From: a virus
DNA length: 35,188 nucleotides
Strand: one strand, 5' to 3'
Virus record (IMG/VR): IMGVR_UViG_3300044620_000986
Location: 1-35,188 of that record
Both the position numbers and the translations under genes were made by a program. Positions 11,310-35,188 of this stretch are shown here, in pieces; the stretch's first letter is position 1, and each line of letters starts with the position of its first letter. The notes under the pieces are model-generated. The model made no database searches and was not told the DNA's origin. It was given only the letters and a program-made list of their open reading frames with translations.

Positions 11310-12428
11310 TCAGCGCGCGGCTGCGGCGGTATCGAGGCTGAACACCCCGAAGTCCTGCGCGCCGGAGCCGTCGTGCGTGAACGTGACCTTCTTCATGCCG
11401 AAGATCGAGGAGGTCGTGATGACCACCTTGTCCCCGTTGTCACGGGTCTCTTCGTGCCAGTCGAAGCGCATGTTGGTGCCCGGCGAACCGAAGGCGACCA
11501 CGGCGGCCTGCGAGCCCAGGAACAGGGCGCGCGCGGCTTCGACGTTGGCGCCGGCGCCAGCGTTGTTGAAGCGGATCACGTTGCGGTGCGAGTGCAGGAT
11601 CACGCCGCGGTACATGCCCAGGCTGCCCTTGAACAGCGGGTTGTTACGACCCTCGGCTGCGGCTGCGGCCTTCTGGATGTCCAGCCACTGTCCCGTGCTC
11701 GTGTCGGCGCGCAGGTCGTCCTCTTGGAACGAGTGCATGCAGACCACGAAGGTCTCGTTGCCGTCGATCTTGCAGGGCTGCAGGACCGGGATGTTCGTCG
11801 CGCCGCCGCCCTGGCTGTCCGCCTTGGTCTTGGCGCGATCGATCAGCCGCAGGTTGAACTTGTCGTTGGCGTCCAGGTTGTTGAAGGCCGTGGCATCGCC
11901 ACCGAACAAACGGTGGTTGCTGTCCGGGGTGACCAGACCGTTGTTCGCGCGGCCGGTGTAGTTCAGCGGCAGCAGGAAGTTCGGGTTCACGCCACGGGCG
12001 CCCGACAGGTAGATGAACAGCAGTTCATCCATCAGGCGAGCCCACCAGCCGGACTGCTGGCGCTTGGCCTTCTCGCGCAGGTCGTGCAGGGTGCGCTTGC
12101 GCGTCATCTTGCCGCCCGTGTTCACGCCGCACCGTGCTTGGTCGATGTAAATCTGGTCGGTGTAGAACTTCTGCGCCTCTTCCTTGCCTTCGAGGATGTC
12201 CTCGCCCTCGACGGGGGCCATCTTCAACTCGGCCAGCAGGTCGTAGCTGATCTGCTCACCGGCGTCGCTTTCCAGGTCCGTCAGGATCTGGATAGGCACC
12301 TCGGCCTCGGCGCCACGCGCCATGAAGCGCTGGCTGAAATAGGACTTCTGGGACTGGTCATAGGCCAGGAGGCCAGACCACTTCTTGATCGCCTTGGGGT
12401 CGTTGACCCCTACGATGGTGCGAGCCAT
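11310..12428 (-). CDS. Major capsid protein, N4-gp56 family
   Basis: 372 aa with a strong AGGAG 7 nt before the ATG. It matches the N4-gp56/DUF4043 capsid layout: KKWSGLLAYDQSQKSYFSQRFM at residues 15-36, then DLESDAGEQISYDLLAEL and VEGEDILEGKEEAQKFYTDQ, the basic segment GKMTRKRTLHDLREKAKRQQS, and FVVCMHSFQEDDLR. A C-terminal beta part carries MRFDWHEETRDNGDKVVITTS. These proteins have the HK97 fold and build the icosahedral head. Scaffold and CsrA-like genes precede it and the decoration gene follows. No prohead protease is visible. Confidence 0.9.
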   Translation of the reverse strand: MARTIVGVNDPKAIKKWSGLLAYDQSQKSYFSQRFMARGAEAEVPIQILTDLESDAGEQISYDLLAELKMAPVEGEDILEGKEEAQKFYTDQIYIDQARCGVNTGGKMTRKRTLHDLREKAKRQQSGWWARLMDELLFIYLSGARGVNPNFLLPLNYTGRANNGLVTPDSNHRLFGGDATAFNNLDANDKFNLRLIDRAKTKADSQGGGATNIPVLQPCKIDGNETFVVCMHSFQEDDLRADTSTGQWLDIQKAAAAAEGRNNPLFKGSLGMYRGVILHSHRNVIRFNNAGAGANVEAARALFLGSQAAVVAFGSPGTNMRFDWHEETRDNGDKVVITTSSIFGMKKVTFTHDGSGAQDFGVFSLDTAAAAR

Positions 12429-12499
12429 GGAAATACTCCTTTGGGTGGAACCTCAAAGAGCACGTCCTGCGCTCGCTTGCTGCTATCAGCGTGTAGGCG

Positions 12500-12712
12500 C
12501 TACGTTGCCACGCTTGGCACGGCTTCGAGAGCCTCGTCGATGTGTGATTTGTCGATCTGAACGGAGGGCAGCGCAGTGACGCGCAGCCGAACCAGTTGGC
12601 CGGACTTCTGCTTTTCAGCAAGTTCGACTACGGCTACTGCTTCGGGGACTCCGTAGCCCAGGGAGAACACCACGCGCTCCCCGGGTCGAACGTCCATGAT
12701 CAGTGACGGCAT
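12500..12712 (-). CDS. CsrA-like small beta protein
   Basis: 70 aa, with GGAG 7 nt before the ATG. The order of elements resembles CsrA/RsmA: a short start (SLIMDVRPGERVVF versus LILTRRVGETLMI), a beta strand (EAVAVVELAEK), then GQLVRLRVTA followed by VQIDKSHIDEAL, which parallels CsrA GNQVRIGVNA and VAVHREEIYQR. The key Arg of CsrA (VAVHR) is replaced by Lys and the loop is longer, so RNA binding is uncertain. CsrA proteins bind GGA-containing hairpins and control translation. Here the gene sits just before the capsid gene. Its last codons carry a degenerate copy of the dispersed 16-bp repeat. It may instead be a head-assembly protein of similar fold. Confidence 0.5.
   Translation of the reverse strand: MPSLIMDVRPGERVVFSLGYGVPEAVAVVELAEKQKSGQLVRLRVTALPSVQIDKSHIDEALEAVPSVAT
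12506..12521 (-). repeat. Degenerate copy of the 16-bp repeat
   Basis: The sequence CGTGCCAAGCGTGGCA on the minus strand differs at one base from the exact element found at four other sites. The change makes a perfect hairpin, TGCCA-AGCG-TGGCA. It overlaps the last codons of the CsrA-like gene and lies about 78 nt before the capsid start. Confidence 0.5.
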
Positions 12713-16716: not shown

Positions 16717-17148
16717 TCAGGCCTCCAGAAAACGGCACTCGTCGCGCCACATGACGTACAAGATCACATCGCCACCGTCGGCTGCCGCGCCTCGCAGGCG
16801 GGCCTCTTCACGAAACCCCAGGTGCTCATCGAAGCGGCGCGCGGCCGTGTTGCAGGCGTCCACGTAGCCGCTGATGCGCTTCAAGCCGCAGATCACAAAC
16901 GGGTACGCGAAGCAGGCCTTCAAGTAGGCGCGCGTCAACCAGCGTGCTCCGGGCTCTGCAGCGACGTGCATCCAGGCGTTGTGCGGGTTGATGCCCTCGT
17001 AGAGGACGCCTGCGATCAGGCGGCTCTCGATCGGACTGCAGCGCTCCAGGCCGATGGCCACCATGTCCTCGGACGTGCGCATGCCCGGCAGCAGCGCGCG
17101 CATGAACGCCGCGACCCTGGGCACGTCATAGACGAAGGCATGGGACAT
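16717..17148 (-). CDS. GNAT-like phage protein
   Basis: 143 aa starting MSHAFVYDVPRVAAFMRALLPG. It has the GNAT-type order: a first helix, a beta pair (MVAIGLERCSPIESRLIAGVLYEG), then WLTRAYLKACFAYPFVICGLKRISGYVDACNTAARRFDEHLGF, which matches the acetyl-CoA-binding region and the NTAARRFYEKLGF-type motif of acetyltransferases, and a final strand with VILYVMWRDECRFL. The substrate is unknown. It sits between Rz and the virion genes. A longer start at 17175 would translate the repeated element as MASVAGLPA and was rejected. A repeat copy ends 12 nt before this ATG and no clear Shine-Dalgarno is present. Confidence 0.6.
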   Translation of the reverse strand: MSHAFVYDVPRVAAFMRALLPGMRTSEDMVAIGLERCSPIESRLIAGVLYEGINPHNAWMHVAAEPGARWLTRAYLKACFAYPFVICGLKRISGYVDACNTAARRFDEHLGFREEARLRGAAADGGDVILYVMWRDECRFLEA

Positions 17149-17160
17149 GGCCGGCAAGCC

Positions 17161-17176
17161 TGCCACGCTTGCCACG
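17161..17176 (-). repeat. Exact 16-bp repeat before the GNAT-like gene
   Basis: The minus strand reads CGTGGCAAGCGTGGCA and ends 12 nt before ATG 17148. Downstream bases GGCTTGCC allow a hairpin with GGCA. It lies just after the Rz stop codon (17179). Confidence 0.8.
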
Positions 17177-17178
17177 GG

Positions 17179-17739
17179 TCACGGCCGGCGCAGCGCCTCG
17201 TAGGCTCGTTCGCAGGCACTGCCTGCAGCAGCGCGGGCGTCGGCTACCGCAGCAAGCTCTCGACCAGCCGCCTCCAGCCGTCCGAGCACGTCGGCGAGCA
17301 CAACGGCGGGGTTGCCGGCTGGCGGGCTGACGGTGGCAGGGGCGGGGTCTGCGGGGGCTGCACAGCGGGTGGCGGTGGCGGCAAGGGCTGCGGCCCGTTC
17401 GCGCAGGCCGTTGCCAGCAACGGCGCCAGCAGCCACAGCAGCCGCATGGCGACGGGCAAGTTCTTCTGCATCACGGGCGATCTCCTGGTGCTTGTTGACC
17501 CATGCGGCCTCGATGTTGCGGGCGCGCTCTGACTCCTTGAGCGCCTGGGCGGTCAGGCTCTCGCGCTCGCGGGCGCGGTCGGCTCGCTCTTCGGCCAAGC
17601 TCGCGCGCAACCGCTGGGCGTCTTGCTCAACCTCGATCTTGCCCAGGTAGGTATAGGCCCCGGCCAGGGCCAGCAAGGCGCACGCCACGCCCCACAGCAG
17701 GTTCACGCCGGGCAGAGCGCTCAGGAGTCGCCCAAGCAC
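17179..17739 (-). CDS. Rz: i-spanin, Rz-like
   Basis: 186 aa from GTG 17739, chosen because AGGAG lies 8 nt before it; it overlaps the endolysin end by 19 nt. One N-terminal membrane segment (NLLWGVACALLALAGAYTY, residues about 13-31) is followed by a long charged helix (EQDAQRLRASLAEERADRARERESLTAQALKESERARN), as in Rz inner-membrane spanins (DUF2514 type). The C-terminus is Ala/Pro-rich and contains the out-of-frame Rz1. With Rz1 it would span the periplasm and disrupt the outer membrane after the endolysin acts. Confidence 0.8.
   Translation of the reverse strand: MLGRLLSALPGVNLLWGVACALLALAGAYTYLGKIEVEQDAQRLRASLAEERADRARERESLTAQALKESERARNIEAAWVNKHQEIARDAEELARRHAAAVAAGAVAGNGLRERAAALAATATRCAAPADPAPATVSPPAGNPAVVLADVLGRLEAAGRELAAVADARAAAGSACERAYEALRRP
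17244..17474 (-). CDS. Rz1: o-spanin Rz1, nested in Rz
   Basis: 76 aa fully inside Rz in a different frame. It starts at GTG 17474, or ATG 17471, with AGGAG 7 or 10 nt before. A signal sequence (MRLLWLLAPLLATAC) ends in a lipobox-like LATAC, so Cys24 would be lipidated and exported. The mature part is Pro-rich (GPQPLPPPPPAVQPPQTPPLPP), as in Rz1 lipoproteins. It would be placed in the outer membrane to pair with Rz. Nested Rz/Rz1 genes are known from lambda. Confidence 0.85.
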   Translation of the reverse strand: MMQKNLPVAMRLLWLLAPLLATACANGPQPLPPPPPAVQPPQTPPLPPSARQPATPPLCSPTCSDGWRRLVESLLR

Positions 17740-18185
17740 TTGCGGTGCTCCTGTTGGCGCCGGATGGTCAGGCCGCGCAGAGGCTCGCCCTGGAACTTGT
17801 CCCAGCGAAGGATCTGGTTGCATGCTTCGGCGTAGCGCCCTTCATTGAGCAGGCGAACCAGCGTTGAGTTGCAGAAGGCAGTCGGGCCGATGTTGTAGGC
17901 CAGGGACAGGTATGCGTCGTACTCGTGCTGATGCAGCGGCACCTTGACGCACGTCTTGAGCGCGCCCTCGAATCGCTGGACATCGCTCAGCGCACGGGCC
18001 AGGGCCTGGGTGGGCGTGGTCTTGTCGCCCAGCTTGACGCCACCGGTCGTCCCAAAGCCAATCGTGGGAACGTCACCCGGGACCGGGATGATGGCGCTGT
18101 CGCTGTAGCCCTCGTGGACGGCCAGCCCGACGAAGGCGGCGGCGGAAAGGGTGAGCGCGGCGGCGGCGACTCTGAGGCGGTCCAT
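17721..18185 (-). CDS. SAR-type endolysin (lysozyme, GH24)
   Basis: 154 aa, the family's usual size. A weakly hydrophobic N-terminus rich in Ala/Gly/Ser (residues 5-22) precedes the catalytic Glu25 (HEGY), followed by GDVPTIGFGTTGG with Asp38 and Thr41, the GH24 triad. The later NIGPTAFCNSTLVRLLN and QGEPLRGLTIRRQQEHRKC are the C-terminal lysozyme lobe. The weak first segment fits a signal-anchor-release domain, so the enzyme could be held in the membrane until the holin acts. No Shine-Dalgarno is visible, and a triplicated form of the repeat ends 11 nt before the ATG. It cleaves peptidoglycan. Confidence 0.85.
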   Translation of the reverse strand: MDRLRVAAAALTLSAAAFVGLAVHEGYSDSAIIPVPGDVPTIGFGTTGGVKLGDKTTPTQALARALSDVQRFEGALKTCVKVPLHQHEYDAYLSLAYNIGPTAFCNSTLVRLLNEGRYAEACNQILRWDKFQGEPLRGLTIRRQQEHRKCLGDS

Positions 18186-18196
18186 TCGCGGCAGAC

Positions 18197-18212
18197 TGCC
18201 ACGCTTGCCACG
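18197..18212 (-). repeat. Exact 16-bp repeat before the endolysin
   Basis: The minus strand reads CGTGGCAAGCGTGGCA, preceded by a third degenerate unit (CGCGGCAAG), so three 9-bp units lie in a row. It ends 11 nt before ATG 18185. GGCAG-T-CTGCC can form a hairpin immediately downstream. Confidence 0.8.
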
Positions 18213-18225
18213 CTTGCCGCGTGGG

Positions 18226-18717
18226 CTAGGACTCCAGCAGCAGCAGGATCAGCGCATCCTCGTCTTCGAGGCGCCGCGCATCGCGCGCGCGCTGCGCCGC
18301 ATCCGGCAGCGGGGCCGCAGCCGCAGCGACACGGGCCACCGCTACGGGAGTGGCCGGCGCGGCTGTGGGAGCCTGGGCAGCGGCAGCAGACTGGCTGAGG
18401 GCGGCAGCCGTAGCGGATCGTGCTGCCTGTGCCGCTGCATCGATCAGCCGGGCGGTTTCGATGGCCTCCCACTTGGCGTCCACCAGGGCGCGCAGGGCGG
18501 TTTCGTCGCCGAGCTTGATGTGCTGGCGTTCCTTTGCGCGTCGGCCGCCTCCGCCGATCGTCGTTGCCTGGGCAACGACGGTCATCGTGCCCGAGGCGCT
18601 GAAGGACATCTTCGCGGCGCCTACCATCCACCCCGGCGTGACGCCGGTCGAGGCGCCTAAGTAGTCGCCGAAATAGTCGCCGAAGTATTGGCCGCTGTAC
18701 GGGCCTTGGGTGCTCAC
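18226..18717 (-). CDS. Small virion-cluster protein
   Basis: 163 aa from a GTG start that overlaps the upstream stop as GTGA. The N-terminus repeats Gly-Asp-Tyr segments (QYFGDYFGDYLG), followed by FSASGTMTVVAQATTIGGGG, which resembles segments of the upstream 280-aa protein, then a helix (LVDAKWEAIETARLIDAAAQAARSATAAAL) and an Ala/Pro tail. The C-terminal end is acidic, LEDEDALILLLLES. It may be a minor head or fibre-base protein. No catalytic motif. Confidence 0.6.
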   Translation of the reverse strand: MSTQGPYSGQYFGDYFGDYLGASTGVTPGWMVGAAKMSFSASGTMTVVAQATTIGGGGRRAKERQHIKLGDETALRALVDAKWEAIETARLIDAAAQAARSATAAALSQSAAAAQAPTAAPATPVAVARVAAAAAPLPDAAQRARDARRLEDEDALILLLLES

Positions 18718-19556
18718 GACGGATCGACCGAGGTGACAGCGCGGGACCCCGAGTTGTAGGCAGCCTCAACCCGGTCTTTGGTCCCGTCCTGGCTTTTGAA
18801 GACCATGGTGCCGCTTTCCAGGCCGGTGGCATCGCCGGCGTTGACGGCCAGCAGCAGGCGCATGACGTCGCGCAGGGTAAGCGCGCCCTCAACCGTGCCG
18901 AGCAGCGGGTCAGCGGCCGAGCCGGCGCTGTTCAGCAGTTCGCCCATGCTGCCGCTGGCGTTGTAGGTGTTCGCCACGGCGCTCCACACCGCGTCGGCTA
19001 GGCTCTGCGGGCTCAGCGGGGTGTTGCTGGTGGCCTCTCCGGTCATGTGGCCCACGGCGTAGGCCGGGGCGCTGGCGCTGAAGCTGATGGTGGCCGCGCC
19101 CGTCAGGTTGGCGATGGCGCCGATGGCGGCGCTGGCGTTGATGGACAGACTCGCCGCACCCGTCCCGCCCACCGTGGCCCGCAAGAAGGGGTTGTTGGTG
19201 ACGATGCTGAACGTGGCGCTGCCGGTGGCGCTGACGATCAGCCCGCCGACTGCGCTGGCGTCAAAGCTGAAGCTGGCTGCGCCCGTGGCTTTGAGGCCTC
19301 GGGTGCCGTCGGCGGCGGCGGTGATCGTCAGGATGGCCGCCCGCGACGACATGCGCCCAGGCTTGTACGGCAACACCCACGACGACGGGGCTAGATTGCC
19401 GCTTGGGATACCCGCCAACTTGGACGGGATGCCCTGGCCCACGGACTGGTTCATGCGCTCGGCGCGGCCCCACATGGAGCGCAGCGTGCCGGGCTCGCCG
19501 CCGATCTGGCGCAGGGGGAGCTGCGCCAGGATCGTGGTGTTCTGCTTGAGCGCCAT
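18714..19556 (-). CDS. Minor virion protein with Ala/Ser beta repeats
   Basis: 280 aa; the ATG overlaps the upstream stop as TGATG. The N-terminus reads KQNTTILAQLPLRQIGGEPGT. Residues about 75-170 hold four repeats of the type (K/V/L)(A/S)TGAASFSFDASA / SATGSATFSIV / GGTGAASLSINASA / NLTGAATISFSASA, each about 25-30 residues. The C-terminus has LADAVWSAVANTYNASGSMGELLNSAGSA and GTKDRVEAAYN, seen in many phage structural proteins of unknown role. A beta-solenoid-like repeat is a possible fold. Overlapping genes suggest coordinated expression. Confidence 0.6.
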   Translation of the reverse strand: MALKQNTTILAQLPLRQIGGEPGTLRSMWGRAERMNQSVGQGIPSKLAGIPSGNLAPSSWVLPYKPGRMSSRAAILTITAAADGTRGLKATGAASFSFDASAVGGLIVSATGSATFSIVTNNPFLRATVGGTGAASLSINASAAIGAIANLTGAATISFSASAPAYAVGHMTGEATSNTPLSPQSLADAVWSAVANTYNASGSMGELLNSAGSAADPLLGTVEGALTLRDVMRLLLAVNAGDATGLESGTMVFKSQDGTKDRVEAAYNSGSRAVTSVDPS

Positions 19557-20434
19557 CAGCCCCAGCCGAACTCAGCCGAGCCGTAGAAGTTGGTGTTGGC
19601 GGCAGTGCCCGCGCCCGCGAAGTAGAGCCACGTCAGACAGGCGCCGTCTTTGACTTGCGGCAGGCTGGGCAACTGGTTGAGCAGATCGCGCTCGGCAGCG
19701 ACGGACACCGTGGTCAGGGGCAGCGTCAGCAGAGGCTTTGCAAGGCACAACGCCCCGGTGCCAGTGTTGGCCGCGCTGAATTGCACTGTGGCCACGTTGG
19801 ACACGCCCGTGTCACCGCTTGCCAGCGGCAGGAACGGCCCGTAGTTGTTGGCCGCCGTGCCCGAGTGGCTGATGTGCGGGGTGATGGCCGAGGCGGTCAT
19901 GGCCACCGTGACCGGCAGCGAACGGCCCGAGGTGGGCGTGGTGTTGGAGTAGCTGACCGAGATGTTCTGCGCTGTTGCGCCTGCGGTGGCGGTCTGCACC
20001 CAGAACAGTCGGCAGCCCGCGCCGTTGGCGTAGCGCAAGCTGGGCGTGCCCGTCAGCGCCTGAGCCGTACCGCTGTTGTTCGTGATACCGGGCCAGTAGC
20101 CTTGCAGATCGACCAGCATGAGCTGTCCAGGCACCCCGGTGGCCACACCCGTGAGCGCCTGCACGTTCAGGATGTGTTTGGTGTCGGTGCTGACGTTGCC
20201 GCCGTGCTGAAGGCCGAATATCTGCGTGCCGTTGCCCGTCGTCTCATCGCATGTCCTCCAGGCCAGCGCAGTGCCTGCCCAGGCGTTGGCGACCGGCGTG
20301 CCGCCCAAGGCGCTGAAGTCGTACCACCGGCCCGCCGTGTAGCCGGCAGCGCCCGTGATCTTGTTCCAATCGTTGCGGTTGAACTTTCCGTTTGTGATCT
20401 CGTTGACGAGATCGTCCATCGATGAGAAAGGCAT
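19556..20434 (-). CDS. Virion-cluster protein, paralogue 1
   Basis: 292 aa, starting 2 nt after the stop of its paralogue (20437-21297). It shares with that protein a run of features in the same order: GTPVANAWAGTALAW versus GIPTYNAYVGNPL, VPGQLMLVDLQGYWPGI versus VPAYLLLADYLMFYPLI, SLRYANGAGCRLFWV versus LPRYASGDGVRCMIV, VSYSNT-SGRS versus VSYTNS-SGRT, FLPLASGDTG versus FIPLASGDKG, and GSAEFGWG versus GFLQFAWG at the C-terminus. It is Thr/Ala/Gly-rich and beta-like. No enzymatic motif. A head or fibre subunit is likely. Confidence 0.65.
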   Translation of the reverse strand: MPFSSMDDLVNEITNGKFNRNDWNKITGAAGYTAGRWYDFSALGGTPVANAWAGTALAWRTCDETTGNGTQIFGLQHGGNVSTDTKHILNVQALTGVATGVPGQLMLVDLQGYWPGITNNSGTAQALTGTPSLRYANGAGCRLFWVQTATAGATAQNISVSYSNTTPTSGRSLPVTVAMTASAITPHISHSGTAANNYGPFLPLASGDTGVSNVATVQFSAANTGTGALCLAKPLLTLPLTTVSVAAERDLLNQLPSLPQVKDGACLTWLYFAGAGTAANTNFYGSAEFGWG

Positions 20435-20436
20435 GG

Positions 20437-21297
20437 TTATCCCCAGGCAAATTGCAGAAAGCCGCGCAGCGACGGCGCCGTCGCGTTGCCGTTGTTCAGT
20501 ATCCAGTTCAGGTACGCGCCGGTCTCGATCTTTGGGCACGAAGCCGAGTGCGGCAGCATGACCTTCTCTGCCGCTGTGGAGTTCTCGCGTATCTGCAAGT
20601 GCGCCAGCGGCTTGACCAGCACCGCATTGAACAACCCCCCAGGCGAGCCCGACACCGTGACCGACTCGATGCTGCGGATGCCCTTGTCGCCACTGGCCAG
20701 CGGGATGAAAGGCGACACCGCGCCAGCGGCAGTCGTGGCATCCGATGTGTTGGCGAGGCTGCCGATGACCGTGGTAGCGACCAGCCCAGCGGTGGCCGTG
20801 CGCCCCGAAACCCCGTCCGAGTTGGTGTAGCTCACCGTCACCGTGCCGGCCTGCGTCATCGGCGAGGCCACCACGATCATGCACCGCACCCCGTCGCCCG
20901 AGGCGTACCTGGGCAGCGGCGAGGTATTGCTCATGTCCTGCTGGTCGGTGGAGTCTCCGTCGATCAGCGGGTAGAACATCAGGTAGTCGGCCAGCAACAA
21001 GTAGGCCGGCACGCCCGCACCAATGCTGACGGCCTGCATGACGTGCAGGAACTTCTCTTGCCCTGCCACTGGCGTCGGTCCGGTGTAGATGCCCCGGTTG
21101 CCCACACCCGTCAGCGGCGTGGCGTCCAGGGGGTTGCCGACGTAGGCGTTGTAGGTTGGGATGCCAGAGCCCACGCTGCCGTCAGCCCAGCGCCCTGCGC
21201 CGGGAGCGGGCACGGCGGCTTTGAAGAAGAACGACTGCCACTCGCGGCCATCGGTGGCCACCGAGTCGGCAAGCTGGCGCACGCTCCTAAACGACAT
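20437..21297 (-). CDS. Virion-cluster protein, paralogue 2
   Basis: 286 aa starting MSFRSVRQLADSV; this ATG is preferred to one 18 nt upstream and overlaps the small zinc-ribbon-like gene's stop by 11 nt. It carries the same ordered motifs as its neighbour (see 19556-20434), including ADYLMFYPLIDGDST, RYASGDGVRCMIVV and SPFIPLASGDKG, and ends QFAWG. The pair reads as a tandem duplication that has diverged well beyond recent copying. Family and precise role are not recognised. Confidence 0.65.
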   Translation of the reverse strand: MSFRSVRQLADSVATDGREWQSFFFKAAVPAPGAGRWADGSVGSGIPTYNAYVGNPLDATPLTGVGNRGIYTGPTPVAGQEKFLHVMQAVSIGAGVPAYLLLADYLMFYPLIDGDSTDQQDMSNTSPLPRYASGDGVRCMIVVASPMTQAGTVTVSYTNSDGVSGRTATAGLVATTVIGSLANTSDATTAAGAVSPFIPLASGDKGIRSIESVTVSGSPGGLFNAVLVKPLAHLQIRENSTAAEKVMLPHSASCPKIETGAYLNWILNNGNATAPSLRGFLQFAWG

Positions 21298-21433
21298 CGT
21301 TGCCCTCGTCCACAAACACCGTCAAGACCACCTCGACGGCGCCGTCAGGGTGATCCGGGCATGGCTCGGGTGTACCGTCCTCCAACCACGCCAGCAGACG
21401 CAGGCAGTGGGCACAGACGATTTGAAAGCCCAC
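21287..21433 (-). CDS. Small zinc-ribbon-like protein (48 aa)
   Basis: 48 aa from GTG 21433, filling the gap between two virion genes and overlapping the next start by 11 nt. It contains CAHC at residues 7-10 and CPDH about 19 residues later (VCAHCLRLL, EPCPDHPDG), a likely Zn-binding Cys2-Cys-His set, and ends VVLTVFVDEGNDVV. No good Shine-Dalgarno precedes the GTG, so translation may be coupled to the 134-aa gene (stop 4 nt upstream). Small Cys-rich proteins here could be assembly or regulatory factors. Function unknown. Confidence 0.55.
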   Translation of the reverse strand: MGFQIVCAHCLRLLAWLEDGTPEPCPDHPDGAVEVVLTVFVDEGNDVV

Positions 21434-21437
21434 GGCA

Positions 21438-21842
21438 TCAGTCAGCCGTCACTGACAGGTCGCCGGGAGCGAACTGCGGCTGGATGCCGGTGGACACGTT
21501 AAGCGTGCCGCCCAAAGCGCCCGAGATCATCATGTTGACCGCGCCGCTGGCCGTGTCCACGATTGCAAAGTGTGTCAAGGCACTGGTGCCGCCCGTGCAA
21601 ACCGGCAACTGCATCAGCACAGCGTTGTCGAACGTCGAGCCGTTGTCGGTCCAGGCGCTGGACTTGGTGATGGCCAGCCGCGCATAACCGGTGTAGGCGG
21701 CCTCGTTGGCGAGGGATGCAGCTTCGCCGGGGTCGGCGGTGAAGGCCGCGAGGTACTGCGTGGCGCCGGCCCGGTAGGACGGGTCCGTGCCCTGCAGAAA
21801 CATCTTCAGGGCGGCGTTCTCGGTGGCGTTTGACAAAGACAT
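21438..21842 (-). CDS. Tail-fibre-type protein (Gp80-like)
   Basis: 134 aa with AAGGAG 6 nt before the ATG. It starts MSLSNATENAALKMFLQGTD, followed by ATQYLAAFTADPGEAASLANEAAYTGYAR, the pattern of the small Gp80-like family usually annotated as phage tail fibre protein. The rest is beta-like (FDNAVLMQLPVCTGG, THFAIVDTASGAVNMMISGAL). Family members are single-domain and lack a receptor-binding tip of known fold. It opens the virion cluster after the portal. Confidence 0.65.
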   Translation of the reverse strand: MSLSNATENAALKMFLQGTDPSYRAGATQYLAAFTADPGEAASLANEAAYTGYARLAITKSSAWTDNGSTFDNAVLMQLPVCTGGTSALTHFAIVDTASGAVNMMISGALGGTLNVSTGIQPQFAPGDLSVTAD

Positions 21843-21868
21843 GGGTGGCTCCTTGTGGGTCGCTTACT

Positions 21869-24454
21869 TCACTTCGCGCCGTCGGTTTCCTGAACCTCGG
21901 CGCCCACGATGTTCCCGTCGGCGTCTCGCTTGACGACAACGGACTTCTTGACCTCGCCGGTCTTGGCGTCAACCTGGACGTTGATGGTCACGGGTGCTGC
22001 CGGGGCGGGTGCCGGGGCCGGCGCTGGCGCGGGAGTCGGCGCAGGCACGGCGGGCGCTGCGGCGGCCTTCTCCTTGGCCGCGATCTCGCGCTCGCGTTGC
22101 GCAAGGTCCTGCTGGCGCAGCTTCTCGTCCATGGCCTGCTGCATCTGCTGCAGGCGCTGCTCGATGGCTTGCAGCTTGCGGTCGCTCGCGGCCTGGATGT
22201 CGGCCACGCGCGCCTTGGCGTCCGCGTCGATCCTGGCGGTCTCCAGTTTGGTGTCCGCCTCGCGGTTGATCTGCAGCGTGCGGTTGGCAAGTTCGGCCTG
22301 GGCCTTGCGCAGGGTCTCGCTAAGGCGGTCGATCTCTGCGGAGGCCTCAGAGCGGACTTGCATCAGGGCGTCTTGCATGCCGGCCTGGGAGTCGCCACCA
22401 GCGCCCGCGACGTTGGCCTCGGCCTCCATCTTGGCCGCCTTCGCGTTGAGTTCGCGCACCTTGGCGCGCTGCTCTTCCAGGGCCGCCATGGCCATCTCGC
22501 GCTGGACCTGCATCGCCTCGGCCTGGGCCATGGCCTGCTGCTCGGCCTGGGCCTGCTCTTCGGGCGACATCTCCTTGGTCGGGTCGCGCTCGCCCGTCAG
22601 CTTGCGGATCTGGTCGGCGATCTCTGACTTGTTGGGCAGGTCGGAGAACTCCATGGCGATTGTCAACACGCGCAGGCTGACCTCTGGAGGCAGGCGCGAG
22701 GCGAGGTTGTTCAAGCTCTCGAACATCACCTGCCGCAAGGTGCCGGCGTAGTCCTGCTCCGAGACGATGAAGTCGCCCATCGAGGACGTGATGTCGTTCA
22801 AGTAGCGCACCGTGCCATCCGCCTGAAGCTCGGGCACGTTGACCTTGACCCACTCGATCGCACCCTTGGCGCCGGTCAGGCGGATGACCTTCTCTTCGGT
22901 GTACCACTGCTCGACCAGGGACAGTTGCTTCTCGCCCTGCACCTGGACGGCCAGCCGCAGGTTGTCGAAGGGCTCGGTGGTCACCACGCTGCCCTGCAGT
23001 TGCCGGGCCTTGATGGCCTCGCCGGAGACAGCGTTGGTCTGCCGGCCCATGTTCTCGTCGGCCACGCCGGCCGAGCGCTGGATGGTGGACTGGGCCAGCT
23101 CCATCATGCTGATCTGGCCGGTTGCCGCGTCCGTGTCGCGCTTGATCTCGACCTTGCGCCCAGGCTTGTAGACGATCATGCCGTCGGGCCGGTCGGCCTC
23201 GTCGCGCAGCAGATCCCAGTCGTCGGTGGCGCCCTCTTCGGCAAACACCTGATTGGTGTTCAGCATGAACAGGGCCTTGGAGGCGCGCTTGTTCAGGTCC
23301 TGCTGGATGTCGCGCACGCGGCGGATCGTGCCGTAGGGCAGGCGGTCCCTGGAGCGGCGGTAGCACCAGATCGGGGTCAGCGTGAATCGGTTGTGGCGGT
23401 AGGGGCTGGGCCCGTAGCCCAGCATGTGCGTTTCGGTGAAGACGGCGATGTGCACACGCATCATCATGCGATCGACCAGCATGCTGCCGCTTTGGCCCAC
23501 GGCGTCACGCAGCACCGAATCCCGGGTGGACAGGATGGCCCCCTTCATCGGGCCGTCGGCCACCACCGTCACGCGCGCGGGCTTGCGGTACTGACCTTCG
23601 ATCAGCTTGACGCGGCGGCGCTTGGCATCAGCCAGGGCGCCCACACCGGTGGCAGTCAGCGTGCCCGTCTTCAGTTGGGTGAGGTCGTGGGCGGTGTACC
23701 AAGTGTCCTCTTCCCAGCCGTCGGTCGTGTAGTTGGTCCCTTCCTCGACGGCGGCGCGGATCTGCGTGGCGCGGTTGGGAAACATCAGGACGGCCACGTC
23801 CTCGTCGACCCACCGCCAACGGAAGAGGTAGCGGGCGTCCGACAGGTCCGGCTCGTAGCTGGCCGAGTCCCACAGCACGTTTCTCCAGTCCTCGTAGCGC
23901 GAGTACAGGATGTCTTGCGTCGGGTCGTCGCGGGTGCCGTCGTCCATCCAGCCCACGCCAGCCTTGAGCGCATCGGCGAAGGCCCGGGAGCGGGTGAAGG
24001 GCACGCGGTTGATGTCGCTGACGTACTTCAACACCTTGGTCTTTACGTCGGCCGACTGCACGTCGTCCTCGGTGCGCGGCAGCACCTTCCAGTCCACGCG
24101 CGCGCGGCGCTCGGTGCCGATCAGCCAGTCGACCATCGGCGCAACCTCGTTGTAGACCAGGGGCACTTGACCGCGCTCTCGCAGCGTCGTGGCGTCCTCG
24201 GGGTCCCACTGCAGGTTGTCGTAGAAGTCGCAGTCCATCGCCATGTCCAGGCGGTTCAGGGACTGCTTTTCCTTCTCGTAGTAGTACCACTCGAGCAAGC
24301 GGCGCAACTCGGCGCGGGCCTCCTCGCCATCGAGCTTGTTGCCCCGGGGCTCCGGCACGCGGCCGGCGCTGTCCATCGTCTGGGCCTGTCGGCGGAAGTA
24401 GTCGTCTCCTGGCGCGCGGCCCCGGGCGGGGCGAACGTCGAATGGCTCAGCCAT
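21869..24454 (-). CDS. Portal protein, P22-like
   Basis: 861 aa starting MAEPFDVRPARG at 24454, with AAGGAGG 9 nt upstream; the start lies 8 nt inside the upstream gene. A longer start at 24514 has no ribosome site. Characteristic portal features in order: YDNLQWDP near residue 80, VPLVYNEVAPMVDWLIGTERRAR, KAGVGWMDDGTRDDPTQDILYSRYEDWRNVLWDSAS, RFTLTPIWCYRRSRDRLPYG, and a C-terminal long helix (residues about 620-800) that is Gln/Ala/Glu-rich and coiled-coil-like. That extended helical barrel is the P22-like portal feature. It forms the dodecameric DNA entry vertex and docks the terminase. Confidence 0.9.
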   Translation of the reverse strand: MAEPFDVRPARGRAPGDDYFRRQAQTMDSAGRVPEPRGNKLDGEEARAELRRLLEWYYYEKEKQSLNRLDMAMDCDFYDNLQWDPEDATTLRERGQVPLVYNEVAPMVDWLIGTERRARVDWKVLPRTEDDVQSADVKTKVLKYVSDINRVPFTRSRAFADALKAGVGWMDDGTRDDPTQDILYSRYEDWRNVLWDSASYEPDLSDARYLFRWRWVDEDVAVLMFPNRATQIRAAVEEGTNYTTDGWEEDTWYTAHDLTQLKTGTLTATGVGALADAKRRRVKLIEGQYRKPARVTVVADGPMKGAILSTRDSVLRDAVGQSGSMLVDRMMMRVHIAVFTETHMLGYGPSPYRHNRFTLTPIWCYRRSRDRLPYGTIRRVRDIQQDLNKRASKALFMLNTNQVFAEEGATDDWDLLRDEADRPDGMIVYKPGRKVEIKRDTDAATGQISMMELAQSTIQRSAGVADENMGRQTNAVSGEAIKARQLQGSVVTTEPFDNLRLAVQVQGEKQLSLVEQWYTEEKVIRLTGAKGAIEWVKVNVPELQADGTVRYLNDITSSMGDFIVSEQDYAGTLRQVMFESLNNLASRLPPEVSLRVLTIAMEFSDLPNKSEIADQIRKLTGERDPTKEMSPEEQAQAEQQAMAQAEAMQVQREMAMAALEEQRAKVRELNAKAAKMEAEANVAGAGGDSQAGMQDALMQVRSEASAEIDRLSETLRKAQAELANRTLQINREADTKLETARIDADAKARVADIQAASDRKLQAIEQRLQQMQQAMDEKLRQQDLAQREREIAAKEKAAAAPAVPAPTPAPAPAPAPAPAAPVTINVQVDAKTGEVKKSVVVKRDADGNIVGAEVQETDGAK

Positions 24455-24863
24455 AGGTGGCGCCCTCCTTCTCGATGCGGATGTCCTCGCCAGCCACGGC
24501 CTGACCATCCACACGAAGCTCCATGTGGCCCATCGAGCTGCGCATGTACTCGGTCGGCGGCGCCGACGGCATGCGGATCAGGTCTGGCAGGCCCTCGTTG
24601 ATGATGCTGGCTACCCGCACCCAGTTCGGACGGCTGGGCTCCAGGCCGAGCACGTTGCAGGCGGTGACGCACTGACGGGCGAGGTAGGTCGCGTCGTCAT
24701 ACTTGAAAGCGGCCGACTCCATGACGACGTACCAGGGCGCGCCGCTGCGGAAAGTCGGGACGAGGACAAGCGCCCGTTCGTCATTGACCCAGGTATAGAT
24801 CGCAGTGATGTCGCCGTGTTGGCGCGACATGAACGCTTTGCGCAGGTCTAGAGAGACACCCAT
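24447..24863 (-). CDS. Conserved-position protein between terminase and portal
   Basis: 138 aa starting MGVSLDLRKAFMSRQHGDITAIYTW. Alpha/beta, with YVVMESAAFKYDDATYLARQCVTACNVLG in the middle and a C-terminal IRIEKEGATYG. The upstream longer frame translates the repeat element and is unlikely to be coding. The portal start overlaps its end by 8 nt. No domain is recognised; its position between terminase and portal suggests a packaging or head-assembly role. A copy of the 16-bp repeat lies 35 nt before the ATG. Confidence 0.6.
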   Translation of the reverse strand: MGVSLDLRKAFMSRQHGDITAIYTWVNDERALVLVPTFRSGAPWYVVMESAAFKYDDATYLARQCVTACNVLGLEPSRPNWVRVASIINEGLPDLIRMPSAPPTEYMRSSMGHMELRVDGQAVAGEDIRIEKEGATYG

Positions 24864-24898
24864 GCGGTAGCCCCGGCACCGTTGAAACGGCGCAAGCC

Positions 24899-24914
24899 TG
24901 CCACGCTTGCCACG
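24899..24914 (-). repeat. Exact 16-bp repeat after the terminase gene
   Basis: The minus strand reads CGTGGCAAGCGTGGCA within GCAAGC-GTGGCAG-GCTTGC, a 6-bp stem with a 7-nt loop. It lies in the 76-bp gap between terminase and the 138-aa gene, 35 nt before the start. A second short stem, CCGTT-TC-AACGG, follows. Confidence 0.8.
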
Positions 24915-24939
24915 GCTCCCAGCGGGGTGCCGGCCGGCG

Positions 24940-26262
24940 TCAGACCGCCATTCCTGTGCGTCGGCGGCGGGCCAGGGCGCCCTGCGGGCTGCCGGAGCGC
25001 AGCGTGTCCTCGGCCACGATGCACAGCATTCCGAAGGCGTCTGCGGAGTGGCTGGACCAGTCGTGCTCGGGCCCCAGGCCCACGTCGCGGACCTCGTCGC
25101 GCTTCTCGTGATACCAGCCAAGGGCGTCCCGGCCGGCCTCGGTCGTGTCCTCGTTGAACCAGATAGCCGGGAACATCCGGCGCGCTGCCTCGATGCGGGC
25201 GATCGCAGCTCCCGGGCCCTGGTTGGGGACGATCTCCACCGTGTAGCCGGCCCGCAGCAAGGCGGACTCGAAGCTCACGTCGAACACCTTGTCGTGCGTC
25301 ACCCCGTCGTGGGGCAGCCAGATGTCCATGCGGTCCGGGCCGTAACCCTTCTTGCGGGCCCAGTGAAGGTGGGCCTCCAGCGGCTGGCCCTGCGTCTCAT
25401 AGTGGTCGAGCATGCGGATCTCGCGGCCGATGAACTGGGCGACCCACCACACGAAGCTGTCGGCCTTCTTGCCGGTGCCGCCGATGTCGGTGAAGGCCCG
25501 CAGGCGCATCAGCGGGTCCGGGGCGACGCGGCTGATTCGTCCTGCGGCCTTGGCGGCGGTCAGGCTCTTGGCGAAGTAGGCACCGGCGACGACGGTGGCG
25601 TAGGCGCCTTCCCAGATCCAGTCGTAGGTGTCGGGCCGCTCGGCGAGGTCACGCTGCCGCTGGCGCTCCAGGACGGCGGGGAACTTGGGGTTGTCGCGCC
25701 AGTTGATCTCCGCGACCTTGATGCGCTCGTCCTTGGTTTGGCGAAAGCGCTGGTCGGTAGCGCTGCCCTTGCGCTGCGGGTTCCAGGTGACCCAAAGCTC
25801 GGCGTTCCAGTCCTCTCCTTCCTCGCGCAGGGTGGGGGTGAGCACGGACCAGGACTTCTCGGACACGCCCTCGGCCTCGTCCACCCAGCACAGCAGGATG
25901 CGGCCCTTGGACTTGATCGAGTTGATGTTGCGTTCCAGGCCGGCGAACGTGTACTCGACGCGGCCGTCGCGCGATCGGACGTAGCTCTCGCCGATCTCGT
26001 AGTAATCCATCAGCCAGGGCTCGTCCTGGATGGCGCGCTTGATCTCCTCCAGGCTGGAATCCGCCAGGGAGTTCTGGAACTGACGAGCACACAGGATCTG
26101 CCCCGAGATGCCTGCCTTGCCGAAGATCATGCCGCGCACGGCTGTCAGCTTGGCGAATGTGCGTGTCTTGCCCGACCCGCGGCCGCCGAAGGCTCCACGG
26201 ACGTCAGCGTCCCCCTCGAATACGGGGCCTATCTTGGGCGGAATCTCGACATTGACTTGCAT
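24940..26262 (-). CDS. Large terminase subunit (TerL), PBSX-like
   Basis: 440 aa, typical length. Walker A GGRGSGKT lies at residues 26-33, and Walker B with the catalytic Glu (ILLCWVDEAE) at 122-131. WVTWNPQRKGSATDQRF fits motif III/coupling. The C-terminal nuclease domain begins FTDIGGTGKKADSFVWW (Asp259) and includes WLPHDGVTHDKVFDVSFES and the final HSADAFGML with its Asp. This is the ATP-driven DNA-packaging motor that cuts concatemers. No small terminase was recognised upstream, where it is usual. The start ATG has no clear Shine-Dalgarno. Confidence 0.95.
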   Translation of the reverse strand: MQVNVEIPPKIGPVFEGDADVRGAFGGRGSGKTRTFAKLTAVRGMIFGKAGISGQILCARQFQNSLADSSLEEIKRAIQDEPWLMDYYEIGESYVRSRDGRVEYTFAGLERNINSIKSKGRILLCWVDEAEGVSEKSWSVLTPTLREEGEDWNAELWVTWNPQRKGSATDQRFRQTKDERIKVAEINWRDNPKFPAVLERQRQRDLAERPDTYDWIWEGAYATVVAGAYFAKSLTAAKAAGRISRVAPDPLMRLRAFTDIGGTGKKADSFVWWVAQFIGREIRMLDHYETQGQPLEAHLHWARKKGYGPDRMDIWLPHDGVTHDKVFDVSFESALLRAGYTVEIVPNQGPGAAIARIEAARRMFPAIWFNEDTTEAGRDALGWYHEKRDEVRDVGLGPEHDWSSHSADAFGMLCIVAEDTLRSGSPQGALARRRRTGMAV

Positions 26263-26275
26263 GCCGTGGCGAAGG

Positions 26276-26291
26276 TGCCACGCTTGCCACG
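26276..26291 (-). repeat. Exact 16-bp repeat before the terminase
   Basis: The minus strand reads CGTGGCAAGCGTGGCA, ending 13 nt before ATG 26262. GTGGC-ACCTTC-GCCAC can fold into a hairpin immediately downstream, next to the start codon. Confidence 0.8.
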
Positions 26292-26304
26292 GCGACGGGG
26301 TATC

Positions 26305-26334: not shown

Positions 26335-27594
26335 TTACCGCGCGGCCAGTTCGCGCTGGGTCTTGAGGTCGGCGAAGTCTTCATTGGCGGCGACCGTCTC
26401 AGCAAATGCTTCGGTGGTCAAAAGACCGGGCCGGTCGTCATCAGTATCAACCTCTTCCGGCGTGATTGGGCACGTAGTCCCTATGATGCCGTTGAGATTT
26501 GGGGCGGTGACATGGCAAGCAAAACCGCGCCACATGAACGTCCGCAGGCCTCTGACATGCGCCTTGACGATCTGGCCGTTGGCGCGCTCATGCTCCCGCA
26601 CAAAGTGGATGATTTTCTTTGCCGTACCGTCAACGGCTGCGGTTTTTTCGCGGTCGGCAAAGTAGGCTGCTGTGTGTTCTTTGGCAATCGTGAATGTGAC
26701 CCGTTTGCCTTCTCTGCGGACGCCGACAGACCAGTTTTCTGCGCGACGGTTCCACCACAACAGAAGCTGTCGGAACACGCACAGCAAAAACCGTTCGTGG
26801 CTCTGCTGATCTTGGCTTTCTTCGGCCTGGAAGGCGGTCGGCATCACCCACTGGCGGGTCTGGAAGTGTGACGCCCTGCTGCCGCGCGTCTTGTATTCGC
26901 GGGCGCGACGGTGAGTGATTGCGTGAACCATCAATCGCTTCTCACGCGGGATCACAAGGGAGCCATCGGCAGCGACAACAACCCAAGCCCACACCCAGAA
27001 CAGGCGCGGCGGGCTGTTTTTGTCGTGTTCAAGCTCAGAAAGTTGCACGCAGTATCCAAAGCGATACGCCGTGCCAGTGAATTGCTCGACGTTTTCAGGC
27101 AAGCGAGGCGCCTTGATGGCAAACGCAAACCGCGGGCAAACCTTCTCTTCGGTGTCGTATTTACGCCCCATCATCAGGCATGAGGCCATGGCCGGGAGGG
27201 CATCGCCGGGCGGCAGCGCCGGGCGGTCCGTCAGTTCAAGAAGCCACGGCGTGGGAATATAAATGCCAAGTTTGTGCAGGGCTCGAACGTCAGATCGTGG
27301 CAACCAGTTGCCTTTTATAGAAGGGATTTGAAGAGACGCAAACGACTCGTCTAGGCCGTCAAGGAGGGACGCTAGGGTTTCCGCGTCGGGTTGTGTTTGT
27401 GTCTTGCTGCGCGAGGCAGTGCGCCGAACTCTGTGGACTTTGGGGGGTGCGGCCAATGCAGCCGGCTGCGCGGACGGCTCTGCGACAACCTCATCAGGCC
27501 GGGATGGCGCAGGCGGCGAAACCTCGCGGCCAAAGATGCCGCGCAGCAACGTCATCAGCCAAGCAAGAGAAAACCGCTCAAGAACTTCGCTCAT
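26335..27594 (-). CDS. Orphan 419-aa protein of lower GC
   Basis: 419 aa; GGAAAG about 8 nt before the ATG. The N-terminus is a possible amphipathic helix (FSLAWLMTLLRGIFG), then a Pro/Ala spacer. The core (residues about 95-360) includes PRSDVRALHKLGIYIPTP, YDTEEKVCPRFAFAIKAP, LFWVWAWVVVAADGSLVIPREKR, HERFLLCVFRQLLLWWNRRAENW and VRGLRTFMWRGFACHVTAP. The tail is acidic (PEEVDTDDDRPG). No known domain is recognised. Its base composition is visibly more AT-rich than flanking genes, suggesting recent acquisition. It lies where a small terminase would be expected, between early genes and TerL, but it is too long and unlike known TerS. Possible moron, host-interaction or defence gene. Confidence 0.7.
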   Translation of the reverse strand: MSEVLERFSLAWLMTLLRGIFGREVSPPAPSRPDEVVAEPSAQPAALAAPPKVHRVRRTASRSKTQTQPDAETLASLLDGLDESFASLQIPSIKGNWLPRSDVRALHKLGIYIPTPWLLELTDRPALPPGDALPAMASCLMMGRKYDTEEKVCPRFAFAIKAPRLPENVEQFTGTAYRFGYCVQLSELEHDKNSPPRLFWVWAWVVVAADGSLVIPREKRLMVHAITHRRAREYKTRGSRASHFQTRQWVMPTAFQAEESQDQQSHERFLLCVFRQLLLWWNRRAENWSVGVRREGKRVTFTIAKEHTAAYFADREKTAAVDGTAKKIIHFVREHERANGQIVKAHVRGLRTFMWRGFACHVTAPNLNGIIGTTCPITPEEVDTDDDRPGLLTTEAFAETVAANEDFADLKTQRELAAR

Positions 27595-33374: not shown

Positions 33375-33390
33375 TATCCGAAAACGGATA
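33375..33390. promoter_or_regulatory. Operator 3 (TATCCG-N4-CGGATA)
   Basis: Perfect palindrome TATCCGAAAACGGATA in the gap before the 70-aa membrane protein. A weak promoter (TTGCGG, TAAAGT with 19-bp spacing) overlaps it on the minus strand. Confidence 0.75.
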
Positions 33391-33414
33391 TTCAGCCGCA
33401 AGCCAAAGCGGTTT

Positions 33415-33723
33415 TCAGGAGCGCAACTGCACCACCTCGCACAGCGGTAGCTGGGGTTGGTTCACGGCGTCTGCCCAGGCCCGCAGGGAGTTGGAGATTT
33501 CCTCCAGGCGCTCCAGCACGAGGTCTGCGTGCTCGGGCTCGATGCCGCGCACGGCAGCGTCGATCTGCCCGGAGGCGGTGATAGTCAGGGCAAGGCCTGC
33601 TACTGGCGCATCAGCCGCGTTGGCCTTGGTGACCATCCACAGACGGATGTCGGCTACGCGAGACGTATCGGGTTTGGGCAGGGTGTGTAGTGGGTCAGCG
33701 AGGGGTGGCGCGCTTCTTGGCAT
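33415..33723 (-). CDS. Unknown protein downstream of the repressor
   Basis: 102 aa starting MPRSAPPLADPLHTLPKP; the start overlaps the repressor's last 29 nt. GGAG lies 13 nt upstream, a weak fit, and an upstream ATG at 33780 is possible. The core is ADIRLWMVTKANAADAPVAGLALTITASGQIDAAV followed by a helix (EHADLVLERLEEISNSLRAWADAV). Likely co-transcribed with the repressor. Function not recognised. Confidence 0.55.
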   Translation of the reverse strand: MPRSAPPLADPLHTLPKPDTSRVADIRLWMVTKANAADAPVAGLALTITASGQIDAAVRGIEPEHADLVLERLEEISNSLRAWADAVNQPQLPLCEVVQLRS

Positions 33724-34174: not shown

Positions 34175-34197
34175 AAGGGTATGGTGCCTGAGAGTGC

Positions 34198-34213
34198 CAT
34201 CCGTATGCGGATA
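34198..34213. promoter_or_regulatory. Operator 4 (CATCCG-N4-CGGATA)
   Basis: CATCCGTATGCGGATA, 24 nt upstream of the repressor start; overlaps the likely promoter of the repressor gene and lies 45 bp (centre to centre) from operator 5. Confidence 0.75.
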
Positions 34214-34242
34214 CACGTGGGGGGAGCGAAGCGCTTTGTGCA

Positions 34243-34258
34243 TATCCGTTTTCGGATA
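34243..34258. promoter_or_regulatory. Operator 5 (TATCCG-N4-CGGATA)
   Basis: Perfect palindrome TATCCGTTTTCGGATA. On the plus strand it lies within the spacer between a -35 (TTTGTG) and a -10 (TAGACT at 34257-34262) for the HTH gene at 34269. Confidence 0.75.
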
Positions 34259-34268
34259 GACTGCGCGC

Positions 34269-34544: not shown

Positions 34545-34575
34545 ACACCCGCGACCACCGGAGGCGATGGCCACG

Positions 34576-34713: not shown

Positions 34714-34967
34714 GTCCGGTTTCAGGCCCTGGCGGCAAGCTCACCCACCGGCTGGACATTCCGATGTCTGAGGCCGACATGGAGGCCCTCATCGCCCTGG
34801 CGGCAGTGGCCGGCGTCACTAAGGCGGAATACGCCCGGTGGGTGCTGCGCCGCGCGATCTGGGGGGAAATGAGCATGCTTCGCACCGTAGCGCGTTCGGC
34901 GCGGGTTATGCCATCCGAGGATGATGGGACGACCACTTTGTATCCTCCTGGACGGGGGAGCATTTGA
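34710..34967 (+). CDS. Ribbon-helix-helix DNA-binding protein
   Basis: 85 aa. The pattern KLTHRLDIPMSEADMEALIALAAVAGVTKAEYARWVLRRAIWGE is that of CopG/Arc-type ribbon-helix-helix proteins: a short strand for the DNA groove and two helices. The tail is Pro/Gly-rich. ATG overlaps the upstream stop. It likely regulates the plus-strand early operon or replication genes beyond the window. Confidence 0.7.
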   Translation: MSPVSGPGGKLTHRLDIPMSEADMEALIALAAVAGVTKAEYARWVLRRAIWGEMSMLRTVARSARVMPSEDDGTTTLYPPGRGSI

Positions 34968-34969
34968 GC

Positions 34970-35188
34970 GTGAGCAACTCCTGGTGGATCACGCACCAGC
35001 TGCTGGCTCTGGGCGAAAACCGCGACCGGATCGAGGTTGACGCGCCCACGTTCAACCCCAGGCCGGCAGGCGTGATCCGCGACGGCAGCGCCACTGCTGC
35101 CGTTCTCGACTGGATGCGATCGCGCAAGTCGGGGGTCTGGTGGACCCGGGGGCAGATTATGGCCGGCACCCGTCGCAGCGAGAAGGCG
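34970..35188 (+). CDS. Winged-HTH-like early protein, cut by the window edge
   Basis: GTG start with GGGGGAG 9 nt upstream, open for 73 codons to the edge. It reads MSNSWWITHQLLALGENRDRI, then AAVLDWMRSRKSGVWWTRGQIMAGTRRSEKA, where VLDWMRSRKSGVWWTRGQIMAGTRRS looks like the start of a winged-helix DNA-binding fold. The C-terminus is missing. It is the third gene of the rightward operon, probably leading into replication genes. Confidence 0.6.
   Translation, partial: MSNSWWITHQLLALGENRDRIEVDAPTFNPRPAGVIRDGSATAAVLDWMRSRKSGVWWTRGQIMAGTRRSEKA

Follow-up and report, generated by a model that had tools for sequence, protein, structure and literature searches.

We found that a short repeat lying between the genes of a viral genome, IMG/VR record IMGVR_UViG_3300044620_000986, belongs to a directional 20-bp element that is probably a phage late promoter, with transcription predicted to start near position 27 as counted along the element (we put the probability at roughly three in four). 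The record, a linear sequence of 35,188 bases, was analysed whole and is called the window below. An exact 16-mer, CGTGGCAAGCGTGGCA, occurs in it four times on the minus strand (17161-17176, 18197-18212, 24899-24914, and 26276-26291), and all these positions agree with a preliminary description of this DNA. That description treated the 16-mer as the unit and ranked an RNA structure ahead of a protein-binding site, with a transcription signal last. The 16-mer is real, but the conserved unit is 20 bp long, includes a T at position 20 (T20), and has a 5' half that differs between phages; the order of the three explanations should be reversed.

In extended -10 promoters, a TG occupies -15/-14, with an A at -11 and a T at -7. 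The bases T12-G13-n-C15-A16-nnn-T20 of the element have this spacing, which would place +1 at about position 27; among them, only T20 was free of selection in the 149 copies compared below. We read positions 12-20 (TGGCAnnnT) as an extended -10 element and propose that a phage-encoded DNA-binding protein recognizes the box upstream of it (positions 1-11; for most phages, CGTGSCAAGCA) and, late in infection, recruits RNA polymerase, most likely that of the host, to the GC-rich site. Genes with an ATG at positions 27-31, i.e., 10-14 nucleotides (nt) after the 16-mer, would have mRNAs that are leaderless or carry at most four extra bases and that need no Shine-Dalgarno site; in the window, the terminase, endolysin, and GNAT genes are predicted to belong to this class. 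Other genes, such as that of the capsid, would have a longer leader, usually with a Shine-Dalgarno site. At many such genes, a hairpin would surround the predicted +1, with its 5' arm within or ahead of the promoter. In read-through RNA, this fold would make the start region inaccessible, and RNA started at the promoter, without the 5' arm, would be translated, as in gene e of phage T4. Our confidence in the regulator and in the silencing of read-through RNA is lower than that in the promoter.

Occurrence of the element in the window and in related phages

When up to three mismatches to the 16-mer were allowed, six sites were found in the window compared with 1.11 expected, a number reached by none of 100 shuffles. 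The two additional sites have one mismatch each: one (12506-12521) is upstream of the major capsid gene and ends 77 nt before its start, and the other (18206-18221) is a tandem copy that overlaps the copy at 18197 with a 9-bp period and lacks T20. As the preliminary description had reported, the 16-mer ends 13, 11, and 12 nt before the ATG codons of the terminase (26262), endolysin (18185), and GNAT (17148) genes, respectively, and no Shine-Dalgarno site is seen outside the element at these three starts. The pairing of GGC(A) with (T)GCC that it had noted is also present (GCCGTGGC..GCCACGGC before the terminase gene and GGCAAGC..GCTTGCC before the GNAT gene). At the fourth exact copy, 35 nt separate the 16-mer from the next ATG (24863), which starts gpX, our label for the gene after the terminase gene (24447-24863; its PHROG is labelled DNA methyltransferase).

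The portal and capsid proteins of the window are 41-50% identical to those of Erwinia phage Pavtok and Burkholderia phages DC1 and BcepMigl, and the capsid protein is also 41-50% identical to that of BcepIL02; we take this group to be the one named Bcep22-like. Relatives were collected with a capsid query in viral contigs (80 loci) and in genomes (eight loci, with record titles including Hydrogenophaga, Roseateles, Mitsuaria, Limnohabitans, and Rubrivivax) together with the nearest terminase relatives, and the set comprised 90 loci after six duplicate loci were left out. Copies near record ends were removed before counting, as were contexts that shared more than 62% identity with a retained context for the 149-copy logo, the distance table, and the set of 52 copies described below. 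Gene starts were taken from a simple purpose-made caller, which errs for gpX in G003 and G019 and for the capsid gene in G004.

The consensus of 149 non-redundant copies is CGTGSCAAGCATGGCA-NNN-T. T20 is present in 145 of these although it was no part of the selection; C15 is found in 145, and counts at the selected positions are 147 for T12, 148 for G13, and 139 for A16, and little else near the motif is conserved. A matrix grown from the copies, and thus trained on the same 90 loci (1.39 Mb) that it scored, gave 228 sites at scores of at least 15 compared with six in the reversed control, and 206 compared with zero at scores of at least 18. Sites were found in 72/90 loci at a score of at least 14 and in 67/90 at a score of at least 19. 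Approached from the 5' side, 85 matches (at most one mismatch) to each phage's own 11-bp box were found in 12 genomes; TGGCA follows in 53 of them, and all 53 have T20. In the genome of Hydrogenophaga intermedia S1, every one of the six sites with zero or one mismatch is on the contig C10 (61.8-86.8 kb), around a prophage capsid gene. The enrichment upstream of genes in relatives for which the preliminary description had proposed to look is present.

Most copies precede genes of the late region. Among 67 copies in 12 whole genomes, 52 are upstream of labelled late genes: gpX of the portal operon (12), capsid (10), a polyvalent virion protein (9), GNAT (8), a small gene or scaffold (8), TerS (3), and endolysin (2). 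One further capsid site, for which the gene caller picked the wrong frame, was counted among the 15 unlabelled ones. Two copies inside a resolvase-like gene (in G017 and G018) look like a coding coincidence.

Beyond these relatives, none of 74 terminase-relative loci (L084-L157, mostly other phage types) scored above 18.1 in an early matrix. The exact 16-mer was also found in 73 viral-contig stretches, mostly of other phages, which were set aside as chance or other systems; among three inspected, T20 is absent from two (G008 and G009) and present in the third (G010). Motif discovery in four genomes without the element (G026, G027, G028, and G030) gave no clear substitute. In one of these, G026 (L379-L381), a possible different repeated motif, approximately YCGMCTAACCTC, is found upstream of late-strand genes.

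Start-codon spacing and hairpins around the predicted start

The distances from the 16-mer to the start codon are bimodal. For 168 copies, they are 0-9 nt in two, 10-14 nt in 29, 15-25 nt in seven, 26-47 nt in 85, 48-61 nt in four, 62-90 nt in 36, and longer in five. These 168 are from a total of 183, 15 having been dropped for lack of a downstream open reading frame (ORF) of 60 codons, and copies without T20 were excluded. For six of the nine odd spacings (0-9 or 15-25 nt), inspection revealed a better start outside the gap. The same distance classes mostly recur in 52 copies from loci outside the capsid query, which were found by an exact pattern requiring T20 and which, where the flank sufficed, are also among the 183.

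The Shine-Dalgarno sites follow these classes. Good sites (dG of -4 or lower) precede none of the 29 starts at 10-14 nt when the bases after T20 only are scored, 81% of the 85 at 26-47 nt, and 86% of the 36 at 62-90 nt. If transcription starts near position 27, a gene would begin either at +1 or far enough downstream to accommodate a Shine-Dalgarno site and hardly in between, and the missing sites at short distance would be explained by leaderless mRNA. Because approximately 100 of the 168 copies precede a gene with a good site, the element is not a general replacement for that site, and the earlier idea of an RNA structure at ribosome entry is only partly supported. The folding itself is statistically real in two distance classes.

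In the folding test, shuffling (mononucleotide) was confined to the stretch that separates T20 from the start codon, and the copies compared are non-redundant but related. Folding better than that of shuffles was found in the 26-36 nt class (n = 60, Stouffer Z -9.4 to -10.9) and in the 10-14 nt class (n = 29, Z -4.1 to -5.2), and was not significant in the 37-47 nt class (n = 25, Z -0.7 to -1.3). The capsid-like class at 62-90 nt (n = 36, Z -11.9) has another leader hairpin. Of the 1150 pairs predicted in the 26-36 nt class, 802 span position 27, a share that has no null and refers to a predicted +1. With so many pairs spanning this point, the hairpins would form mainly in read-through mRNA, and the logic of T4 gene e would also account for the GGC(A)/(T)GCC pairing. 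The hairpin arms differ in sequence between phages, yet pairing is present in most gpX leaders shown, and relatives carry differently built hairpins at this position.

The phage-specific box, its candidate regulator, and neighbouring features

Within a phage, the copies share one box variant, and the variants differ between phages: CAAGCG in the window and G001-G003, CAAGGA in G017, CAAGGC in G018, CTAGTA in G019, and CATGCG in G024. In a comparison of 168 sites from 42 loci, agreement at positions 4, 5, 7, 8, 10, and 11 was 0.877 for pairs within a locus and 0.715 for pairs between loci, a result reached by 0/500 label shuffles; at positions 12-16, the values were 0.910 and 0.904 (57/500 label shuffles). 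That the box is phage-specific and positions 12-16 are not fits a phage protein on the box and a common machine on the -10 part. The pattern suggests that a DNA-binding protein of the phage has evolved together with the box.

A MarR-like winged-helix protein is a candidate for this trans-acting factor. The family, with approximately 110 residues, was spotted by eye in gene lists and then traced by iterated hidden Markov model (HMM) searches; it was found in all 12 motif-bearing whole genomes, at the cut right end of the window, and in 10 of 11 further motif-bearing genomes, i.e., 22/23 in all, although close kinship among some of them (G001-G003, G013/G014, and G022/G023) means that they do not count as independent. 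A BLAST comparison of gene content between 12 motif-bearing and four motif-less genomes returned only late-region genes. Two family members had no Pfam match above the cut-off, and a search of named phages with one member gave nothing at E 0.001. The AlphaFold model of a relative is a winged helix with a mean pLDDT of 84.2 (approximately 95 in the core), and its nearest structural neighbours are MarR proteins, ZitR and MepR among them. The gene before it in the window (34545-34964, plus strand) encodes a small protein that resembles the ribbon-helix-helix type and is present in 8/16 genomes as well as in the window.

Table 1. Predicted elements, hairpins, and genes in the window.
Feature	Coordinates	Strand	Basis or remark
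Predicted late-promoter element, terminase large subunit	26272..26291	-	16-mer 26276-26291 + NNNT; predicted +1 ~26265-26262; ATG 26262
Inverted repeat GCCGTGGC...GCCACGGC flanking the element; 3' arm touches the terminase ATG	26263..26293	-	Sequence
Predicted late-promoter element of gpX and the portal gene behind gpX	24895..24914	-	Exact copy; site before gpX in 12/12 whole genomes
Hairpin GCGCCGT...ACGGTGC between element and gpX ATG, across predicted +1	24876..24893	-	Sequence; class folding test
Predicted late-promoter element of endolysin gene	18193..18212	-	ATG at 18185
Predicted late-promoter element of GNAT-like gene	17157..17176	-	ATG 17148; homologous sites in G001-G004
Predicted late-promoter element of major capsid gene	12502..12521	-	Overlaps 3' end of CsrA-like ORF
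Terminase large subunit, predicted (near-)leaderless	24940..26262	-	phrog_3717
Endolysin, predicted (near-)leaderless	17721..18185	-	phrog_7
GNAT-like acyltransferase, predicted (near-)leaderless	16717..17148	-	phrog_4470, scanned from GTG at 17175
Major capsid protein	11310..12428	-	phrog_334
Candidate winged-helix factor, 5' part (cut by the window end)	34925..35188	+	HMM E 2.6e-22; fold of a relative

The element of the terminase gene (Table 1) has a homologous site in L082/L083, and none was seen in the TerL upstream regions of G001, G002, and G004. The terminase shares 93% identity with its G001 counterpart, and most neighbours are 97-100% identical (one short gene, 90%); with this dip, the stretch looks as if it had been exchanged. 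Upstream of the terminase gene, a 419-aa protein (26335-27594, minus strand) has no PHROG or Pfam family and no matching protein in G001. Near the XRE repressor gene (33695-34270), there are inverted copies of a TATCCGNNNNCGGATA-like palindrome (33375-33394 and 34239-34258), the latter overlapping the 5' end of the called XRE ORF; these palindromes are possibly lysogeny operators.

The capsid site has a predicted leader of approximately 70 nt with a strong Shine-Dalgarno site. A short hairpin (GAGCGC-AGGAn-GUGCUC; 12458-12474, minus strand) starts approximately 46 nt before the capsid ATG in this leader. Its core was found in 66/66 leaders tested (of 80), and in 35 distinct leaders the inner four pairs form in all, the outermost pair failing in three and the next in 13. 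The gene upstream of the capsid gene (12500-12712, minus strand) encodes a CsrA-like protein of 60-70 aa (phrog_8397, E 0.002 in the window), and its counterpart in G004 matches PF02599 at 32.5 bits (cut-off, 27). CsrA binds GGA in hairpin loops, so the capsid gene may be controlled in translation by the phage's own CsrA. The available part of one source lists CsrA homologues for Bcep22, DC1, BcepIL02, and others (PMC7366521).

Alternative explanations and known systems

Several observations weigh against a late promoter of this kind. In the 12 whole genomes, 15/67 copies precede no labelled gene and 6/67 lie within a called ORF (the two in the resolvase-like gene included). The site has neither the T at -12 nor the AT-rich hexamer of a sigma70-type -10 element, for C15 is found in 145/149 copies and positions 17-19 are not AT-rich; given this GC-rich -10 half and the C at -12, the host sigma70 alone should use the site poorly. 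Position 27 has no purine preference (64/149), and the start near it is itself a prediction from the motif. Departures from TGGCA with T20 kept occur at late genes (TGGCC in G004, TGACA in G011, TGGCG and TGCCA in G017, TGGAA in G019, and TGGTG in G021). The core is a partial dyad, TGSCA-N4-TGGCA, which would suit any dimeric DNA-binding protein, and two of the copy searches required part of the 3' half and the T, so the invariance of these bases is not demonstrable from those copies. Three of the odd spacings (L193, L285, and L286) have no better start, and L285 combines a distance of 20 nt with a Shine-Dalgarno score of -5.2. Once the element is included in the scoring, GGCAGG brings some starts at 10-14 nt to scores of -4.8 to -5.0. 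The winged-helix candidate is missing from the motif-bearing record G033; among five genomes without a recognized motif, two have the family and one has a weak match, and shared ancestry alone could produce the co-occurrence of protein and motif.

We consider it unlikely that the promoter serves an RNA polymerase or a sigma factor that the phage itself encodes instead of activated host sigma70, a reading that partly coincides with the explanation that we favour. The element is one contiguous block without a -35 part, which resembles the single-element promoters of phiEco32 in the available text of their description (PMC8948821). However, a search for Sigma70 region 2 found none in 18 genomes and was positive in 10/14 control genomes, and region 4 gave matches below the cut-off only (4/18 genomes). 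For a T7-like, single-subunit polymerase, PF00940 was found in 0/4 genomes, a result that is not decisive since the control was also silent. The logo lacks a conserved TTGC at the spacing required for a Sigma54 promoter, and this type was not supported. Sigma54 promoters have GG and GC 12 bp apart (TGGCAC-N5-TTGC).

It is unlikely, in our judgement, that the element acts at the RNA level, as a conserved mRNA motif with a hairpin, be it by recruiting the ribosome, by blocking it, or as the target of an RNA-binding protein of the phage. Two distance classes do fold above shuffles, differing arm sequences are found at an equal place in relatives, and the 5' arm is often within the element. However, good Shine-Dalgarno sites follow approximately 100 of the 168 copies, no fold signal is seen at 37-47 nt, and Rfam 15 gave zero window matches at gathering score; T20 and the thin 15-25 nt zone are better matched by a promoter. 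We regard as quite improbable a stoperator-like function, in which a phage repressor bound to a directional intergenic site would halt transcription elongation in the lysogen. The element is directional, mostly intergenic, and present in several copies per genome with a box that varies by phage, and stoperators are, according to the accessible text, asymmetric 13-mers in promoters and short intergenic spaces that are oriented with transcription (PMC9283540). Nevertheless, the immunity region of the window (33.4-34.5 kb; relatives not checked) contains no copy, and another palindrome recurs near the XRE repressor gene. A stoperator would also leave unexplained the scarcity of starts at 15-25 nt, the lack of Shine-Dalgarno sites at 10-14 nt, and T20.

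The late-promoter reading can be extended to a clade of temperate phages of Burkholderiales, in which a hitherto undescribed MarR-like winged-helix activator would act on an 11-bp box that is particular to each phage and joined to an extended -10 element rich in GC, terminase, lysis, and GNAT mRNAs would be leaderless, read-through RNA would be silenced by hairpins, and box and activator would evolve together. We propose this fuller picture tentatively, as a possibility that has less than even odds. If it is true, each gene silenced in this way would answer solely to its own late promoter, and the co-evolution of box and activator would amount to a private late-promoter code for each phage. 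It would be unusual for packaging and lysis genes to have leaderless mRNAs. The element offers start-site predictions for dozens of phages and would correct annotated start codons, and the boxes that changed together within each phage form a natural promoter series, in which box swapping could test the regulator. In the open-licence literature, we came across no account of how late genes are controlled in this phage clade and nothing on promoters of Bcep22-like phages that describes this element; for the motif string, no phage paper was recognizable by title among the matches listed, with subscription journals outside the scope of the search.

Compared with known systems, the stoperators of cluster A mycobacteriophages are similarly short, asymmetric, intergenic sites along the direction of transcription but are repressor sites that halt elongation, and no -10-like part is described in the available text (PMC9283540). 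In Deinococcus-Thermus, leaderless mRNA results from a -10 element that precedes the start codon by a few bp, as far as the available part of the source describes it (PMC12340547); those are host promoters without an 11-bp upstream box or phage-specific variants. The phiEco32 promoters share the single conserved block and have starts 6-8 bp downstream, but their block is an AT-rich 9-mer used with a phage sigma factor (PMC8948821, from the text available), whereas no sigma region 2 was found here. A parallel in logic is T4 gene e (and also soc, 49, and I-TevI), where, in the accessible part of the account, long read-through RNA folds over the start region, and a late promoter lies in the region that encodes the 5' strand of the hairpin, such that its transcripts escape the arm and are translated (PMC3014915). 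We propose a similar logic for the read-through hairpins of these phages. T4 uses TATAAATA with the phage sigma factor gp55 at genes that have ribosome sites, whereas here the putative promoter is GC-rich and many genes are predicted to be leaderless, and the proposed layout of hairpin and promoter recurs at several genes per phage.

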